Shown: positions 20,372 through 28,793 of the stretch, one piece after another | Layout: each line of letters opens with the position of its first letter | How positions within the stretch are numbered: position 1 is the first letter of the stretch | NCBI RefSeq assembly: GCF_034347385.1 | Contig: NZ_CP133777.1 | Coordinates: 496,001 to 560,000, forward strand | Source: Actimicrobium sp. CCC2.4 | GTDB lineage: Bacteria > Pseudomonadota > Gammaproteobacteria > Burkholderiales > Burkholderiaceae_D | Direction: 5' to 3' | DNA length: 64,000 nucleotides | Position numbers and translations under genes: made by a program | The notes under the pieces: model-generated | The model's database searches: none | What the model was told of the DNA's origin: nothing | Seen by the model: the letters and a program-made list of their open reading frames with translations, nothing else

Positions 20372-20998
20372 ATGAACATTGAGCCGGATGCTGCTACCGA
20401 AATCGCCCTGCTGCGCCAGCAGCTCGCCGTCAGTGAAGAAGAACTGCGCACCTTGCGTGCCGGGATCACGTCACTGATCCGGCATGATGCGCTGACCGGC
20501 GTGATGAACCGCCGCACGCTGCTTGAAACGCTGGATGGCGAACTGCAACGTTCGCGCCGGACCGGCCAGCCGTTCTGTTTCGCCATCGTCGATCTCGATC
20601 ACTTCCGTCGCATCAATGAACAATACGGTATGGCCGCCGGTGACCGCGTGCTCAAGGCCGTGTCGGACACCGCCCAGAAATTATTGCGCGGCATGGACCG
20701 TTTCGGCCGGCTCGGCGGCGAAGAATTCGGCATCGTGATGCCGGCCACCTGGCTCGATAGCGCGGCCACGGCAATGACGCGCCTGCGCACGGCGGTCGCC
20801 GCCTGCGACTGGGCCGGCATGACTGACGGCACCGTCGTCACGTTTTCGGCCGGCCTGACGACCAATGCGCCGGCCGACACGGCCGGCCACCTGCTGCAAC
20901 GCGCCGAATCGGCCCTGCTGCAAGCCAAGCTCGATGGCCGTAATTGCACGGTCGTCGTGGAAGAACCCTTACCTACTATGACGGACCCTGATGACTGA
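20372..20998 (+). CDS. GGDEF-domain diguanylate cyclase
   Basis: A 208-residue cytoplasmic protein made of a short N-terminal coiled coil (about residues 1-35; [19 protein letters not shown]) and one GGDEF domain. The active-site loop is GGEEF, and RGMD lies exactly five residues before it, the position of the RxxD inhibitory I-site. It therefore should make c-di-GMP with product inhibition. There is no sensory domain. The amyloid operon starts 1.6 kb downstream, and c-di-GMP control of that operon is a possibility, not something shown here. Confidence 0.9.
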
Positions 20999-22191: not shown

Positions 22192-22414
22192 CGGACATCC
22201 TGATTGTGTGTTCGGGCGGCCATTATTCCACTGTTCCGGTGCGGGGTGATCTATCAGTTTCGATACATTTCAGGACAGCTTATCCGGGGCGCGTTCGTGC
22301 CTCTGTTGCGGGTGTCGCTGAGAGTGTCCGCGTCACTGATGTCTCGCCAATCCCTCTTCCTGTTCCCACTTATCTGTATCAAACCTGAAACCAAGCAGGA
22401 CCGTTTGAGGGATT

Positions 22415-22439
22415 TTTTGTCGCCTTTCGGGCGACAAAA
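22415..22439. promoter_or_regulatory. Perfect inverted repeat upstream of the amyloid operon
   Basis: TTTTGTCGCC at 22415-22424 and GGCGACAAAA at 22430-22439 are exact reverse complements separated by five bases. The dyad ends 17 bases before the -24 element of the sigma-54 promoter. No gene upstream is transcribed toward it, so a terminator role is less likely than a protein-binding site. It is rather close to the promoter for a classical enhancer, so it could also bind a repressor. Confidence 0.5.
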
Positions 22440-22456
22440 CTAGCTGCCAAGCGGTG

Positions 22457-22472
22457 TGGCACGTCGCTTGCG
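22457..22472 (+). promoter_or_regulatory. Sigma-54 promoter of the fap-like operon
   Basis: TGGCAC at 22457-22462, five bases, then TTGC at 22468-22471: an exact match to the -24/-12 consensus with correct spacing. The expected start of transcription is near 22483, leaving a leader of about 105 bases before fapB. Sigma-54 promoters need an AAA+ activator, and one is encoded at the far end of this operon. Confidence 0.85.
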
Positions 22473-22588
22473 ATGTTAGCCCCGATGCGACCGGGACGTG
22501 GATGAAAATTCCGGTAGTGGTCGCCGCATTGAGGTGGCATCAGAGGCACTTTTCTGCCAATTTTTTTTACCGTTCCAGGAGGGCTGAA

Positions 22589-23215
22589 ATGTTGCAGATT
22601 TCATTGAAGACCATGCTGGCGGTCCTTGGTGCGGCTGTGCTGTCCGTACCGGTTGGCGCGCAGCACGTGTCGTCGGGCTTGCTGCCGTCGTCGCTTAGCG
22701 TGATTTCGGATACGGCACTGTCCAACGCAACAGGCCACGTCGGATTCAATTCAAGCGCCGGTCAGGGTAACGCGCAGTCCAACGCGACTGCCTTGGGTTT
22801 CGGCGGTAGCGGCGTCATCAGTGGTGCCGATCTGGTCAGCGACCATCAAGGTGCGGTAGCCGTCAACGGCGTGCGGGGTAATGAGGACGTGGTCATTCGT
22901 GGTGATGCTTTCCGGGCAGCGCGTGGCGTGATCTCCGTCAATCAATCCAGTGGCAGTGGCAATGCGCAAACCAACATGGTCTTGCTTGGTATCAGCGGCA
23001 TATCGGAAATCGCGATCGATCAACTGGTGCAGGTCAGTGCTGTTGCGCCGGCTGATTCTGCCGGGCCCGAAGCCAGACCGGCGGTGCGTCGCGCCGAGAT
23101 TGCCGACTCAGCGTTCGCCGGTTCGCGCGGCATTGTTCAGGTCAACCAATCGGCGGGATTGGGCAATCGTACCGCCAACGTGTTCGCACTCAACGTCAGT
23201 TCCGTAGTGCCGTAG
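22589..23215 (+). CDS. fapB: FapB-like amyloid nucleator/minor subunit
   Basis: A 208-residue secreted protein with a signal peptide (about 1-24, ending VGAQ). It carries three spaced repeats of the form GxxxxNxxxGxGNxxxN: GHVGFNSSAGQGNAQSN (near 49-65), GVISVNQSSGSGNAQTN (near 115) and GIVQVNQSAGLGNRTAN (near 185). Such Gln/Asn-rich repeats with long linkers characterise FapB and FapC, the nucleator and main fibre of the Pseudomonas functional amyloid. Position first in the operon and size fit FapB. The start has AGGAGG six bases upstream. No cysteine is visible. Confidence 0.78.
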   Translation: MLQISLKTMLAVLGAAVLSVPVGAQHVSSGLLPSSLSVISDTALSNATGHVGFNSSAGQGNAQSNATALGFGGSGVISGADLVSDHQGAVAVNGVRGNEDVVIRGDAFRAARGVISVNQSSGSGNAQTNMVLLGISGISEIAIDQLVQVSAVAPADSAGPEARPAVRRAEIADSAFAGSRGIVQVNQSAGLGNRTANVFALNVSSVVP

Positions 23216-23311
23216 CCGGGGAATGGCACGGAGTTTTTGCAGGTGGAAGTGGGCAGTGCCGTTCAGTACGTCGACCGACGTATTTTTATTCATATTCTTA
23301 AGGAGGACTTC

Positions 23312-24124
23312 ATGAAACCAACTAAATTCGTTCTTGCTGCGGCACTGGCTGCTGCCTTTGCTGCGCCTGCCATGGCCGGTGAAGTGACGGGCGTTACCGC
23401 GTCCCTGATCGCCAACGGCACCGTCATCGGCAATGCGATTGGCGTGTCGGGCCGCATCGGTGTTGCGGGTGACATCAATGTGCTATCGGAGTCGGGTGCC
23501 GTGCTGGATACCGAGCAATTTTCTACCGTTACCGTGACACCGGCCATCGTCACCCCACCCGCCGGTGTCGGCTCGACGGGCGGCACAACAGGTGTGGTGG
23601 CTGATCCCAACACTGCCACCATCGACGGTACGGCCGGGAACAATGCGCAGGGCAATATCGCCATCAACGTTGCTGCGGGTAATGGCAATGGACAGAGCAA
23701 TTCTGTCGCGTTGTCGGCCGTCGATGCACAGCGGGTATTTGCCTCGGCGCAAACCTTCGCTGAACAGCGGTCCAACAACACCATTACGGTCGCTCCGCTC
23801 CAGGTAAATTCTGCTTATCTGGTGGATGCATTGTCCGGCGCAAGCGGCAATATCAGCGCGAACGTTGCGGGTGGCGACGGAAACCTGCAACAAAACCAGC
23901 TGGCTGCTTCGGTTAATTCGAATGGCACGCTGGCCAAGGCAACGGGCTCGAATCTGCAGGACATTCGTGGCACCGTCATTCTCGGCGCTGGTGGCATCAA
24001 CACGGCCACATTGGGTGGGGCTGCACTGTCTGGCGCCCAAGGAAATATTGGTGCCAATATCGCGGCGGGTATCAGCAACGTGCAACGTAACAGTCTGTCG
24101 ATCGCAGCCGCTTCCGGACTCTGA
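23312..24124 (+). CDS. fapC: FapC-like major amyloid subunit
   Basis: A 270-residue secreted protein with a clear signal peptide (1-22, ending AMAG). Three repeats occur: GNIAINVAAGNGNGQSN (near 110), GNISANVAGGDGNLQQN (near 180) and GNIGANIAAGISNVQRN (near 245). They closely resemble the repeats I know from Pseudomonas FapC, and the linkers are low in charge and rich in Ala, Thr, Val and Asn. An ideal AAGGAGG lies before the ATG, which fits high expression. A stable hairpin follows the gene. As in Pseudomonas, it is longer than FapB and lies directly behind it. Fibre formation is inferred. Confidence 0.8.
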   Translation: MKPTKFVLAAALAAAFAAPAMAGEVTGVTASLIANGTVIGNAIGVSGRIGVAGDINVLSESGAVLDTEQFSTVTVTPAIVTPPAGVGSTGGTTGVVADPNTATIDGTAGNNAQGNIAINVAAGNGNGQSNSVALSAVDAQRVFASAQTFAEQRSNNTITVAPLQVNSAYLVDALSGASGNISANVAGGDGNLQQNQLAASVNSNGTLAKATGSNLQDIRGTVILGAGGINTATLGGAALSGAQGNIGANIAAGISNVQRNSLSIAAASGL

Positions 24125-24134
24125 TCGTATTTCG

Positions 24135-24176
24135 GGCGCTGGCTTTGAGGAAGGTTTTACTCCTCCGGTCAGCGCC
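24135..24176 (+). promoter_or_regulatory. Intercistronic stem-loop between fapC and fapD
   Basis: GGCGCTG at 24135-24141 pairs with CAGCGCC at 24170-24176, and inside it GAGGA (24147-24151) pairs with TCCTC (24161-24165). No T-run follows, so it is not a standard terminator. It could protect the fapBC part of the mRNA from 3' decay and so raise subunit output over export proteins. Confidence 0.5.
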
Positions 24177-24249
24177 GGCTTGATGGATGGTTGCTTTCCT
24201 GTGCATGCCGTTTCTGCTGGCGGTAGCAAGGTCTACGAGGGGATAGGTG

Positions 24250-24972
24250 ATGGATAAGCGCCTCTGGTCTGTTGCTGTCGTGATGCTGGCAAATTGTGTC
24301 GGGCACGGGCCGTTGCATGCGCAGCAGAGTGGCGCTCTTGTCGGCTCGCACCAGGAAATTGGCAATGTCGTGCCGGGGCTTTCTACGCAGAGGCTGGCCA
24401 TACGGTCGTTGCGCGACTTGCGTTTCAAAGGGCTGGTTCAGCAACAGCAGGATTTCAGTTGCGGTGCCGCTGCGTTGGCGACATTGCTGCAGCAAGTCTA
24501 CGGACGACCGATCAGCGAGGCCGACGTGATTGCCGACATGCTGAGAAATACCGATCCGGAGTTGGCGAAATCCCAGGGATTTTCGCTGCTTGACATGAAG
24601 AGCTACGTAGAACGTATCGGGTTACGCGGACGTGGCTATGTGGTTGATCGCACAAGCTTGCGGGCGGTCAAGATCCCGGTAATCGCGCTACAGAATAATG
24701 GCGGTTACAAACATTTTGTGATCATCAAGAAAGTAGTTGGCGACACGATATTCATCGCCGATCCCGCGCTGGGTCACCGGCAAATGGTGCTGGATGATTT
24801 TGTCAGCGGCTGGAACAACATCGTATTTGCCGTCGTCGGGGACGGGCTCCGGGCGGACAACGCACTGATTGCCTCCGCTCAGCCGCTAGCGCCATTGCAG
24901 AGGGCGGGCATCGTGACGCAAACATTGCCGCAGCAACGTCAGTTCGGTTTGCTGGGCATCGATACTTTTTAA
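24250..24972 (+). CDS. fapD: FapD-like C39-family cysteine peptidase
   Basis: A 240-residue secreted or periplasmic protein with an N-terminal signal region. The peptidase C39 core is evident: QQQDFSCGAAALATLL (near 68; Gln of the oxyanion hole and catalytic Cys), GGYKHFVIIKKV (near 153; catalytic His) and IADPALGHRQM (near 168; Asp). FapD of Pseudomonas is such a protease and is needed for Fap assembly. The ATG at 24250 is chosen; a GTG lies one codon before. Its place directly after the two subunit genes matches the fap order. Confidence 0.8.
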   Translation: MDKRLWSVAVVMLANCVGHGPLHAQQSGALVGSHQEIGNVVPGLSTQRLAIRSLRDLRFKGLVQQQQDFSCGAAALATLLQQVYGRPISEADVIADMLRNTDPELAKSQGFSLLDMKSYVERIGLRGRGYVVDRTSLRAVKIPVIALQNNGGYKHFVIIKKVVGDTIFIADPALGHRQMVLDDFVSGWNNIVFAVVGDGLRADNALIASAQPLAPLQRAGIVTQTLPQQRQFGLLGIDTF

Positions 24973-24988
24973 TGTGAAGGGAAATCGT

Positions 24989-25777
24989 ATGCAATCAAAG
25001 CAATTGCGCCGCACCTTGGCAGCGTTCGCGATAGTCGCCGCCCCGCTGCCCGTGACGACGCATGCGACACCGATGGCGGTGTGTACCAGTGACGGTTTGT
25101 GCGGCCGGGCACAGGCCATGGAAGCACAACACCTGGCCGGAGTCACCGGAAAATTCAGCCTTGGTGGCGAGGTAGTGGGTATGAATTTGCAGATGGCTTC
25201 TTCCTGGCAGGCAGCCAACGGCCAACATCTGAATGGCAAGGCCAGTCTTGCCCTGGCCTTGCCGGGTGCGAACGGTGCGGTCGAGCCGCAAGCGAGCATA
25301 CAGACGCAAGCAAGCGTGAGCGAGCCGACGTCGTCATCGCTGCCCGGTACCGGCCTGGTCAGCAGTGGAAAGGGGCTCAACAGCATTGCCGGAGCTACGC
25401 AACTGGTGCAGGTTGCCGGCGACAATAATGGCGCGTCCAACCTGACTACGATCGATGTGAGCCCGCGCGCGATTGTCTTGCCTGGCGGAGCCAACACCCC
25501 CCGCGCCGAATCGATCGCGGCCAATGGTGCGAAAGTGACCGTCGATTTTGCCAATAACGGCATTGCACTGGCACTGAACGTACCGGGTGCGGGATCCGCG
25601 CAACAACGCCTCAATACCCTCAATGCAAACAATATTTTGCAAAGCATACAGATCGCCGCGGATCGCCAGCAGGTGATGAATCAGCTTCAATTGCAGTTGC
25701 AGGTGCGTCCGCAAACTGCTGCCGTATTGGCGGCCGAGGGATTCGGTCAATCCCTGAACATGCTGCGTGGTCGTTGA
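24989..25777 (+). CDS. fapE: FapE-like minor fibre component
   Basis: A 262-residue secreted protein with a signal peptide (1-25, ending THAT). Two cysteines lie close to the mature N-terminus (VCTSDGLCGRA). The middle has LVQVAGDNNGASNLTTIDV, and the C-terminal half has NNGIALALNVPGAGSAQQRLN, which echoes the subunit repeat. Gene order and length (Pseudomonas FapE is about 230-250 residues) support the call more than sequence motifs do. The ATG at 24989 has GAAGGGA at a good distance. FapE is reported as a minor fibre constituent. Confidence 0.68.
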   Translation: MQSKQLRRTLAAFAIVAAPLPVTTHATPMAVCTSDGLCGRAQAMEAQHLAGVTGKFSLGGEVVGMNLQMASSWQAANGQHLNGKASLALALPGANGAVEPQASIQTQASVSEPTSSSLPGTGLVSSGKGLNSIAGATQLVQVAGDNNGASNLTTIDVSPRAIVLPGGANTPRAESIAANGAKVTVDFANNGIALALNVPGAGSAQQRLNTLNANNILQSIQIAADRQQVMNQLQLQLQVRPQTAAVLAAEGFGQSLNMLRGR

Positions 25778-25804
25778 TCTCTCTGCTGTGGATTGTCGAT
25801 GTCC

Positions 25805-25832
25805 TGCCCTGCTGCTCAGGCGGGGCATTTTT
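25805..25832 (+). terminator. Weak terminator-like hairpin between fapE and fapF
   Basis: TGCCC near 25805 can pair with GGGCA ending near 25827, followed by a TTTTT run. The stem is short and has mismatches, so it is at best a partial attenuator that would lower fapF relative to the upstream genes. Confidence 0.35.
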
Positions 25833-25908
25833 ATAGTCGAGTTGACCGACGCGGGTGAGGTCTTGGCTTGAATTGCCCCGTAAAACTTTTTCCCGGAATC
25901 TGGAATTT

Positions 25909-27252
25909 ATGAAACGACATTACCGCAGATGTTTTCCTGCCCTGTCCCTGGCGGCTTCGCTCGCGCTGTTGCCACTTTGCGCATGGAGCGCTGATCACGA
26001 CGAGGCCGGCACCATCGTGACGGGCACTTCACCCGAATCGCACTTCAGCCGTCAGGAAGAAGCGATCCGGCGCTTGCAGCAACGCGTGGATTACCTGGAG
26101 CAACGTGCACTGGCAAGCCCCGATCTGAAAACCGTCGTCGGGCGTGGTCCTGCAGGGACCGCAAGCGCGACTTCTGCAGGCACGCCGGAGCAGCCTGTCG
26201 ATGCGCGTATCAGTGCCAACCCGCCGCTGGCGCCGGCGACACAGACGACACAAGCGACACAGGCGGGTGGCAATGCCGCCGGCGGCTCCGCTGGTACGGT
26301 GCAGGGTACGGCGATTACCAGCACCCAGGGAATTCCATTGTTCGACAACCGATTTTCGTTTGAGCAAGGACTGACCTACACCCACTACGACAAACGTAGC
26401 CTGGTACTGAGTGGTTTCCTGGCGCTGGACGCGATCCTGCTCGGCAAGGTTAATTTGCAGCAGATCCGAACGGATCAATTCCAATATGACCTCACCGGTC
26501 GCTGGAATTTGTCAGAGCGTCTGAGTGCAGATTTCAATGTGCCGGTTGTCTATCGGAATTCGACCTATATTTCGCCGGGCGCGGGAAGCGCCGCCTCCGC
26601 CTTCAGCGATGGTTCGAATCATTCCGGGTCGGTCGGGGATATTAATGCGGGGGTGTATTTCCAGATGCCTAAAGGTGCCACGTCTGACATCGACTGGATT
26701 GTCAGTGCTCGCATGAAAGCGCCTACGGGGCGTGCGCCATTTGGCATCAAGTTGGTCGAAAATACGGACCCGAACAATAACAACTTGCTGATTCCAACAC
26801 GTCAGCCTACGGGCAACGGAATATGGGCAACGACGCTGGGCTTGTCGCTCCTGAAAGTTACCGATCCGATGGTGTTGTTCGCCAATCTTGGCTACACCTA
26901 TAACTTCAAGCGCAGCTTTGCCGATCTGTCGAGTTCGTTGACAACGGTTACACCGGGGGAGGCCAAGATCGGGAATGCCTGGTCACTCGGTGCGGGTTTC
27001 GCTCTTGCATTGAACGATAAAACATCGGCCAGTTTTTCATACGCGCAGTTACTACAGCAGGTGTCGCGCTTGCGTGCCGACGGTGGTGATTGGGTGCGTC
27101 AGGTTGGTAGTGATTCAAATTCTGCGAGCTTCAATGCCGGCTTGACGCATCAGTTGACGCCGCGGCTGTCGATGGTCGGAACGCTATCGATGGGGCTCAC
27201 ACCGGATGCCCCGAATTTTTCGGTCGGGATCAAATTCCCCTATACGTTCTGA
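25909..27252 (+). CDS. fapF: FapF-like outer-membrane amyloid exporter
   Basis: A 447-residue outer-membrane protein. The signal peptide (1-26, ending AWSA) is followed by a heptad segment at about 45-65 (RQEEAIRRLQQRVDYLEQRA), a Gly/Ala/Thr/Gln-rich linker to about 140, and a beta-barrel domain that ends in Phe (KFPYTF), as outer-membrane barrels do. Pseudomonas FapF has the same plan: an N-terminal coiled coil that trimerises and gates a 12-stranded barrel secreting the fibre subunits. The ATG at 25909 gives the signal peptide; upstream codons do not. It is the last gene of the operon and converges on the sigma-54 activator gene. Confidence 0.82.
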   Translation: MKRHYRRCFPALSLAASLALLPLCAWSADHDEAGTIVTGTSPESHFSRQEEAIRRLQQRVDYLEQRALASPDLKTVVGRGPAGTASATSAGTPEQPVDARISANPPLAPATQTTQATQAGGNAAGGSAGTVQGTAITSTQGIPLFDNRFSFEQGLTYTHYDKRSLVLSGFLALDAILLGKVNLQQIRTDQFQYDLTGRWNLSERLSADFNVPVVYRNSTYISPGAGSAASAFSDGSNHSGSVGDINAGVYFQMPKGATSDIDWIVSARMKAPTGRAPFGIKLVENTDPNNNNLLIPTRQPTGNGIWATTLGLSLLKVTDPMVLFANLGYTYNFKRSFADLSSSLTTVTPGEAKIGNAWSLGAGFALALNDKTSASFSYAQLLQQVSRLRADGGDWVRQVGSDSNSASFNAGLTHQLTPRLSMVGTLSMGLTPDAPNFSVGIKFPYTF

Positions 27253-27314
27253 TCAGACCGTGAAAAATGAGTGACGGGTTTGTGCCTGTGCTTGCTATGT
27301 AGCGTCTTGCCGCA

Positions 27315-28793
27315 TTAATTCACTATGTACCCATCAGTATCCGGACACTCAGGCTCCGGGGTGCTGATTGCCGATACGAGTTGCAGGAACTGGGTGTCCG
27401 GTTGAGCTTGTGCTTCAAAAAATGAAGGCTTCAAGCGATATTTATCGATTAACCGGTACAAGGTGACCCGCGACACGCCCAGCAACTGTGCCGCCACGGA
27501 AACCTGGTTGCGTGCCTGGGAAAGTGCGCGCTCGATCATGCGCCGGTCAGCTTCCGCACGGGCATCTTCGAGTGACATCAGCATCGTCGATGGCGACGCC
27601 GGATCGAAGCCGAGATCCTCGGGTTGAATAAACCGGCCATCTGCCATGACAACCGCACGCTGGACGCGGTTCACCAGTTCGCGGACGTTGCCCGGCCAAT
27701 TGTGGTGCAGCAGGGTGTGCAAGGCGGCTTTGGAAAAGCCACGCAGGCTTTTGTTGTGACGACTGGCGAAGCGCGTGAAGTAGTGACGTGCCAGTTCTTC
27801 GATGTCTTCCAGGCGATCAGCAAGTCGGGGCGTGGTGATGCACACCACATTGATGCGGTAATACAGGTCTTCGCGGAATCGACCGCGGGCGACCGCATCG
27901 GCCAGATCGATGTGCGTCGCCGCGATGATCCTCACGTCAATTGTCAATGTCTGGTTTCCGCCGATGCGCTCGATGGTTTTTTCTTGGAGGAAGCGAAGCA
28001 GGTTGACCTGCATCTCCATCGGCAGATCGCCGATTTCATCGAGGAACAGTGTTCCGCCTTGTGCCGCCTCGATGCGTCCGATCCGGCGCTGGATGGCACC
28101 GGTGAAGGCGCCTTTTTCGTAACCGAATAATTCGGACTGGAATAATTGTGGAGGGATTGCGCCGCAGTTGACCGCAACAAAGGGAGCATGCCGCCGCGTT
28201 GATTGACGATGTATCGATTGCGCGGCCAGCTCTTTGCCGGTGCCGGACTGGCCATCGATCATGACGGGGGCATCGGTACGCGCCACCCGCTTAATCTGAT
28301 GAAACAAGCGTTGCATCGGCGGTGTTCTTCCCAACATTGGACTGTGTTTTTCGCCGGCAATACTTGACTCCGGCCAGATATTGCGCGGTTGCGTGCGTAC
28401 AAAAGCCATGCCGCGAGCATGTCGCAACACCAGAATGATGTGTTCGATGGGAGCCGGCAAGGCGATGAAGTTAAACAGATAGTCAGCAACCAGATTACGT
28501 ACCGCCGGTAGCCCCACCAGATCATGGGCGATCAGGCCAACCCAGGTGATGCCGCTGTGGGCCAGCATCGGTTCGAAAGCACTCAGCCGTTGCAGCCACA
28601 TGAGGTCTGCCACCAGCACGACCCCGACTGTGCAACCAGTACGGCCTGCTTGTTCGGCGGTATGGCATTCATGTAGCACCATGCCGACATGACGCATCGT
28701 GTTGACCACGGGATATTCTGACAAGGGATGTCCGGGTGGCTGAAGCAGCACCACGGCTTGATTGCGCCGGAATGACGTCGCGTCATGAAGCAT
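27315..28793 (-). CDS. Sigma-54-dependent activator (VpsR/FleQ-like)
   Basis: A 492-residue enhancer-binding protein. The N-terminal 140 residues look like a receiver domain lacking a clear phosphorylation site, as in VpsR-type regulators. The AAA+ domain has Walker A GQSGTGKE, an intact sigma-54 contact loop EKGAFTGA, Walker B GGTLFLDEIGD and FREDLYYRINV. A Fis-type HTH is at about 425-455 (NQVSVAAQLLGVSRVTLYRL). It lies tail to tail with the amyloid operon, whose promoter is sigma-54 type, so it is the prime candidate activator. Whether it responds to c-di-GMP cannot be told from sequence alone. Confidence 0.85.
   Translation of the reverse strand: MLHDATSFRRNQAVVLLQPPGHPLSEYPVVNTMRHVGMVLHECHTAEQAGRTGCTVGVVLVADLMWLQRLSAFEPMLAHSGITWVGLIAHDLVGLPAVRNLVADYLFNFIALPAPIEHIILVLRHARGMAFVRTQPRNIWPESSIAGEKHSPMLGRTPPMQRLFHQIKRVARTDAPVMIDGQSGTGKELAAQSIHRQSTRRHAPFVAVNCGAIPPQLFQSELFGYEKGAFTGAIQRRIGRIEAAQGGTLFLDEIGDLPMEMQVNLLRFLQEKTIERIGGNQTLTIDVRIIAATHIDLADAVARGRFREDLYYRINVVCITTPRLADRLEDIEELARHYFTRFASRHNKSLRGFSKAALHTLLHHNWPGNVRELVNRVQRAVVMADGRFIQPEDLGFDPASPSTMLMSLEDARAEADRRMIERALSQARNQVSVAAQLLGVSRVTLYRLIDKYRLKPSFFEAQAQPDTQFLQLVSAISTPEPECPDTDGYIVN

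Follow-up and report, generated by a model that had tools for sequence, protein, structure and literature searches.

The closest described relatives of the system reported here are the fapABCDEF operons of Pseudomonas (P. fluorescens UK4/PF07, P. aeruginosa and P. putida), which encode functional amyloid of Pseudomonas type (Fap). In Pseudomonas alone, export through FapF, the need for an active cysteine in FapD and regulation by BrfA, RpoN and cyclic di-GMP (c-di-GMP) are known. The FapD cysteine is required for FapC secretion (PMC5557850), and in P. fluorescens PF07 both an RpoN promoter and brfA, a reverse gene downstream of fapF, are needed for fap expression (PMC9207406), BrfA being reported to sense c-di-GMP (PMC13101488). 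fapA is not vital for fibres (PMC6173800); 6 of 16 genera have no fapA, Aeromonas, Chromobacterium and Laribacter being examples of exceptions to fapABCDEF (PMC3792158), and its absence is the commonest published variation of fap operons. Here we analyse a fapBCDEF operon without fapA in Actimicrobium sp. CCC2.4, located in a stretch of 64,000 nucleotides (hereafter the window) that covers bases 496001-560000 of a complete 4.15-Mb single-contig genome. Its function in this organism is predicted by analogy with Pseudomonas.

Five genes, all on the + strand and all with open frames, occupy window positions 22589-27252: fapB (22589..23215), fapC (23312..24124), fapD (24250..24972), fapE (24989..25777) and fapF (25909..27252). 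An initial annotation had read them as a Fap-type cassette in the order fapB-C-D-E-F and proposed a profile search as a check. The search bore the reading out: the best NCBIfam match of each product is the expected Fap model, five in order (NF058557, 1.8e-24; NF058558, 1e-21; NF058616, 2.1e-63; NF058559, 5.8e-25; NF058560, 1.6e-113), and Pfam found a C39 peptidase and sub-threshold barrel models in these products and nothing else. From sequence, we consider it very probable that the window encodes a functional Fap operon, fapBCDEF, that lacks fapA.

FapB, the putative minor or nucleating subunit, and FapC, the putative major subunit, each contain three imperfect repeats of 31 residues (residues 41-71, 105-135 and 173-203 in FapB; 106-136, 171-201 and 236-266 in FapC). 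For FapB the best ungapped repeat triplet scored 194, where shuffles averaged 40 (sd 9, max 80, n=100); for FapC the corresponding values were 221 and 68 (sd 9, max 101, n=100). With scores so far over the shuffles, the prediction of three amyloid repeats in each of two subunits held, and the model matches and repeats together recover the defining pair of Fap systems, a secreted FapB and FapC with usually three Fap repeats. The repeats had also been called Gln/Asn-rich; they are so to a moderate degree (18% Gln+Asn in FapB, 24% in FapC). The FapC sequence also matches that of the solved FapC 9nqd (2.2e-15).

The secretion proteins are equally recognisable. FapD is a C39 peptidase, as annotated (PF03412, 2.3e-22), with Cys, His and Asp blocks that align to a solved C39 domain; its hydrophobic, signal-like N-terminal stretch suggests that it is periplasmic, like the catalytic Cys/His/Asp peptidase that characterises Fap systems. 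For the exporter, the initial annotation had proposed a coiled coil plus a barrel; FapF of Fap systems is a trimeric barrel with a coiled coil in the periplasm. The barrel is confirmed by NF058560 and by the solved FapF 5o65, which matches residues 146-447 at 2.3e-86, and identifies the protein as an outer-membrane amyloid exporter of the FapF kind. A FapF search of a genome-contig collection gave no match, and all matches in a plasmid collection were below 60% identity. A terminator-like hairpin with a T tail (25805..25827, +) separates fapE from fapF. It is the strongest of 11 such sites, against 8.3 expected in shuffles; because that count is not above chance, the hairpin is weak on its own. 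It could lower the dose of exporter relative to subunits.

What does FapD cleave? C39 peptidases usually cut at double-glycine sites. For Pseudomonas, FapE processing is suggested by mass spectrometry. In PMC5557850, FapE alone lacks N-terminal peptides and is suggested from GG/GA motifs to be the likely FapD substrate; that paper also reports no canonical C39 sequence and calls the FapD target unclear, though FapE is favoured. We aligned 31 FapE proteins, from 28 surveyed fap loci of 27 other genomes (chosen for a FapE match), the window, the sister strain 'Oxalobacteraceae bacterium IMCC9480' and Aeromonas caviae. Shortly past the signal-like N-terminus they share a motif, L-x-x-[LIM]-R-G in most, in which Gly is present in 31/31, Arg in 28/31 and Leu in 27/31. 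The window version is L-A-G-V-T-G-K, with Thr in place of Arg (L-A-G-V-T-G, fapE codons 49-54, 25133..25150, +). A similar L-x-x-[MY]-R-G-G, in several cases followed by a FapE-like strand, occurs in small open reading frames (ORFs) of the related cassettes described below. This conserved glycine in a C39-like context is a specific candidate site for FapD, with cleavage predicted after Gly54. One surveyed genome (G407) has two FapE loci on one contig (L068, L067); in the second, a repeat protein of 761 aa is encoded and fapE and fapF are ~5 kb apart.

The canonical first gene, fapA, which the literature does not require for membership, is missing from its place (22192-22588), as the initial annotation had noted. 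The ORFs present there, of 79 and 60 aa and both ending before the sigma-54 site described below, and the fapB frame when extended upstream are not fapA-like; a FapA search that covered the 79-aa ORF and the extended fapB frame found no match. We found no signal-bearing ORF between the promoter and fapB and no FapA-like ORF between the upstream LysR gene and fapB. The whole genome likewise yielded no fapA: the FapA model NF058556 found nothing at E<=10, and an alignment of 15 FapA-like proteins from the surveyed loci produced two weak matches (E 0.04-0.05) that were rejected on reading, one a frame that we take from its motif to be histidine-phosphatase-like, the other a short frame with a stop.

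Among the 28 surveyed loci, profile searches detected a FapA-like ORF in 15 and none in 13, the latter being an upper bound for true absence. With a profile that leaves out an antisense frame of L086, exactly these 15 loci score at E<0.01. The 13 are an upper bound because L067 has no recognised fapB to mark its fapA place, and because unassigned small ORFs with a signal-like start stand in the fapA place of L062, L064, L068, L071 and L074. A second unassigned small ORF of this kind (~104-164 aa) lies between the regulator or promoter and fapA or fapB in L062, L064, L065, L066, L069, L071 and L074. The fapA-less operon is real, but a missing fapA is already common in print (6/16 genera; PMC6173800) and in our survey. 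When fapA of the P. putida F1 operon carried a stop mutation, the aggregates were mostly FapB although biofilm was extensive (PMC3684753), and by this analogy it is plausible, as initially suggested, that fibre assembly differs without fapA. Window FapC contains no cysteine and hence no CXXC motif. A link between CXXC in FapC and fapA was considered and dropped: the motif occurs in a FapC-like protein of four fapA-bearing loci (L069, L081, L083, L088) and of no fapA-less locus, and the other 11 fapA-bearing loci lack it. L077 has a CXXC in an over-long FapB frame.

Sigma-54 control, also proposed from the start, is supported by a perfect promoter match and an adjacent activator gene. The -24/-12 element TGGCACG-N4-TTGC (22457..22471, +), 118 bp before fapB, has no second perfect copy in the window; the genome holds 6, against 0 for a backward control pattern. 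When one mismatch was allowed the window had 6 sites versus 2.9 expected, a number reached in 4 of 100 shuffles. IMCC9480 has TGGCAC-N5-TTGC at the same distance from fapB, its seventh base being A, a change outside the core. The other perfect sites were considered as exopolysaccharide targets, and none of their adjoining ORFs, read by eye, was suggestive. Downstream of fapF, a convergent gene (27315..28793, -) encodes a sigma-54 enhancer-binding regulator (PF00158, 1e-72) with a weak VpsR-type N-terminal domain; as a reverse sigma-54 activator gene in this place, it is BrfA-like by position. A promoter match and an activator gene are thus present, but the plan is not new, having been published for P. 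fluorescens PF07 (PMC9207406).

Regulator homologues were found in the fetched stretch of 23 of the 28 fap loci (all except L067, L071, L078, L079 and L080), some stretches having been cut to include regulator places already seen; the L088 homologue is partial, at a contig start. Of 145 same-family genomes, 45 have a regulator of this type (E<=1e-90) and fewer, 32, a FapF-like match, so the type is not confined to fap. A GGDEF (diguanylate cyclase) gene lies beside the LysR gene at 20372-20998, 1.6 kb upstream of fapB. That c-di-GMP feeds into the window regulator is a guess.

How might the operon work? The convergent enhancer-binding protein, perhaps responsive to c-di-GMP like BrfA, would activate sigma-54 polymerase at 22457-22471, from which fapB-E, and possibly fapF, would be transcribed. 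Sec would carry the five proteins to the envelope, where FapF would form the outer-membrane pore and FapD would clip FapE, with the glycine site as candidate, to license export. FapB would then nucleate and FapC polymerise into a surface amyloid, each by way of its three repeats; a fibre formed in the absence of FapA may contain a larger share of FapB.

Several observations weigh against a functional Fap operon under its own regulator. All five products score under the curated NCBIfam equivalog cut-offs (86/190 bits for FapB, 78/195 for FapC, 214/330 for FapD, 88/250 for FapE and 380/700 for FapF), the VpsR-type domain of the regulator reaches 21.7 bits against a cut-off of 23.7, and relatives of the regulator persist in three family loci that have no FapF/FapD-like genes, which weakens the idea of a fap-only regulator and means that it may not be dedicated to fap. 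Because the surveyed matches fail as well (0/369 and 0/399 genomes with FapE above its cut-off, 0/28 for FapF), at such distance the cut-offs fail to tell Fap proteins from others; an equivalog cut-off reflects a limit chosen by a curator and does not define Fap. The similarity of FapD to FilB (1.2e-26) and of FapF to FilC (1.2e-15), together with related cassettes for a Gly/Ala/Ser/Thr-rich protein in family relatives, could instead point to a Fil-like or other FapF/C39 export system with non-amyloid cargo. This is highly improbable: the Fap models are far ahead (214 vs 94 bits for FapD, 380 vs 58 for FapF), the Fil matches stay well short of their own cut-offs (94/475 bits for FilB, 58/630 for FilC), FapB, FapC and FapE have Fap matches of their own, and in trees the FapF and FapD of the window fall with those of FapE-bearing loci.

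A decaying operon that makes no fibre, with fapA loss as its first step, is very unlikely, even though fapA is absent, a hairpin parts fapE from fapF, and, of the three other genomes of the genus in the set, the drafts G033 and G086 gave no FapE. The frames of all five genes are open, fapA-less loci are common (our survey; PMC3792158), and the sister strain argues for maintenance. Its contig (L031) carries the same GGDEF (96%) and LysR (98%) genes, then fapB-C-D-E up to the contig end, and the ratio of nonsynonymous to synonymous substitution rates (dN/dS) between the two strains is 0.14 for fapB, 0.06 for fapC, 0.15 for fapD and 0.09 for fapE; fapBCDE is under purifying selection. The third genus genome, G064, has FapE at the same place as the IMCC9480 genome, and the two are evidently one fragmented draft (1080 contigs), a fragmentation that explains why FapF and the regulator are missing from the G064 searches. 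The idea that the genus otherwise lacks fap is ruled out by this FapE. It is a lesser but genuine possibility that an unrecognised gene elsewhere fills the role of FapA, so that the system is not functionally reduced: FapA is poorly conserved, with 17% average identity outside Pseudomonadales (PMC3792158), and some surveyed loci have small secreted ORFs in its place, but neither the NCBIfam model nor the 15-row alignment finds FapA in this genome, and no ORF with a signal stands between promoter and fapB. We retain a functional fapBCDEF operon without fapA as the most probable reading.

The regulator and the cassette appear to have different relatives. In the regulator tree, the window protein clusters with ten others from the family (55-63% identity; SH-aLRT branch support 100), whereas those of G018 and G132, also of the family, fall outside. 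None of the genomes of the ten has FapE at E<=0.1 (0/10). Beside these regulators stand a response regulator, DUF3567 and 'MTLTT' ORFs in 10/10 loci and the window's LysR in 4/10; five loci encode a FapF-like barrel together with a FapD-like peptidase and a secreted product of 60-68% Gly/Ala/Ser/Thr, two a more divergent F/D-like pair, and three neither gene. FapF-like matches in the family other than the window's reach 25-32% identity only. Trees that hold window FapF or FapD with the family set were rejected (p 1.35e-05 and 0.015), with the caution that these are quick trees in which the FapF branch of the window is long, its nearest neighbour G757 is long-branched (SH-aLRT 95) and long branches meet in the FapD tree. 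An approximately unbiased test in which the window regulator was constrained to join the fap regulators of Burkholderiales (p 2.7e-11) was not used, the named group not being one clade. Thus, judged by these trees, the locus looks mosaic, with a regulator from one lineage and FapF and FapD akin to those of FapE-bearing loci. Two histories would be compatible with this: transfer, or an ancestor that had both cassettes, followed by differential loss. Both kinds occur together in G738 and G640, and in G770 another FapF-like match, of low score, lies ~9 kb from fapF.

In L095-L099 and L101, all from same-family genomes, a FapF-like exporter and a C39 peptidase lie beside a protein of 523-807 aa and 60-70% Gly/Ala/Ser/Thr that ends in a common motif close to QQSVNVQANL; the one such protein scanned, from L097, had no Pfam or NCBIfam match. 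We read this set as a relative of Fap and Fil that exports a silk-like cargo. We suggest, tentatively, that in this family one regulator-linked slot might host alternative fibre-export cassettes (fapBCDEF here, FapF/FapD-like genes with silk-like cargo elsewhere), both with a companion protein whose glycine site is cut by the C39 peptidase to license export. If true, the exact FapE site, its conservation across both cassettes and the exchange of cassettes under a resident regulator may be new.

How does the locus compare with known systems? It resembles Pseudomonas fap in its five orthologues in order, its three repeats in both FapB and FapC, and its sigma-54 promoter with a reverse sigma-54 activator downstream of fapF, as in PF07 (PMC9207406); unlike Pseudomonas, it has no fapA and no cysteine or CXXC in FapC, and similarity is low, under curated cut-offs. 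With published fapA-less operons (PMC3792158) it shares the missing fapA and an otherwise kept operon, and differs in that fapF still adjoins fapE. The A. caviae locus (L105) has a B-B-D-E-F-type order, a regulator nearby and no FapA match at E<=1, and its FapF is 37% identical to that of the window over 66% of its length. The record holding it (NZ_AP026896), titled plasmid at 4.9 Mb, seems to be a chromosome deposited under a plasmid label. The same-family cassette of L095-L099 has the same flanking regulator lineage and neighbours, a FapF-like barrel and a C39 peptidase, but those genomes lack FapE, and their Gly/Ala/Ser/Thr-rich cargo has no Fap repeat match at E<1e-3. The putative pilus system Fil (NCBIfam NF050078/NF050079) resembles the window in weak matches to the C39 peptidase and FapF-like barrel, with scores far under those of the Fap models and no other Fil match. 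fapA-less fap operons and RpoN-dependent fap with an adjacent reverse regulator are already known, and the window operon fits both. It is a natural case of an operon without fapA, found in an Oxalobacteraceae-like bacterium, and could show how the balance of FapB and FapC holds without FapA. The parts that deserve specialist attention are the mosaic locus, which bears on the published view that horizontal fap transfer is infrequent (PMC3792158), and the FapE glycine motif, a precise candidate FapD target that divergent Fap loci conserve and that has a counterpart in the related cassette.

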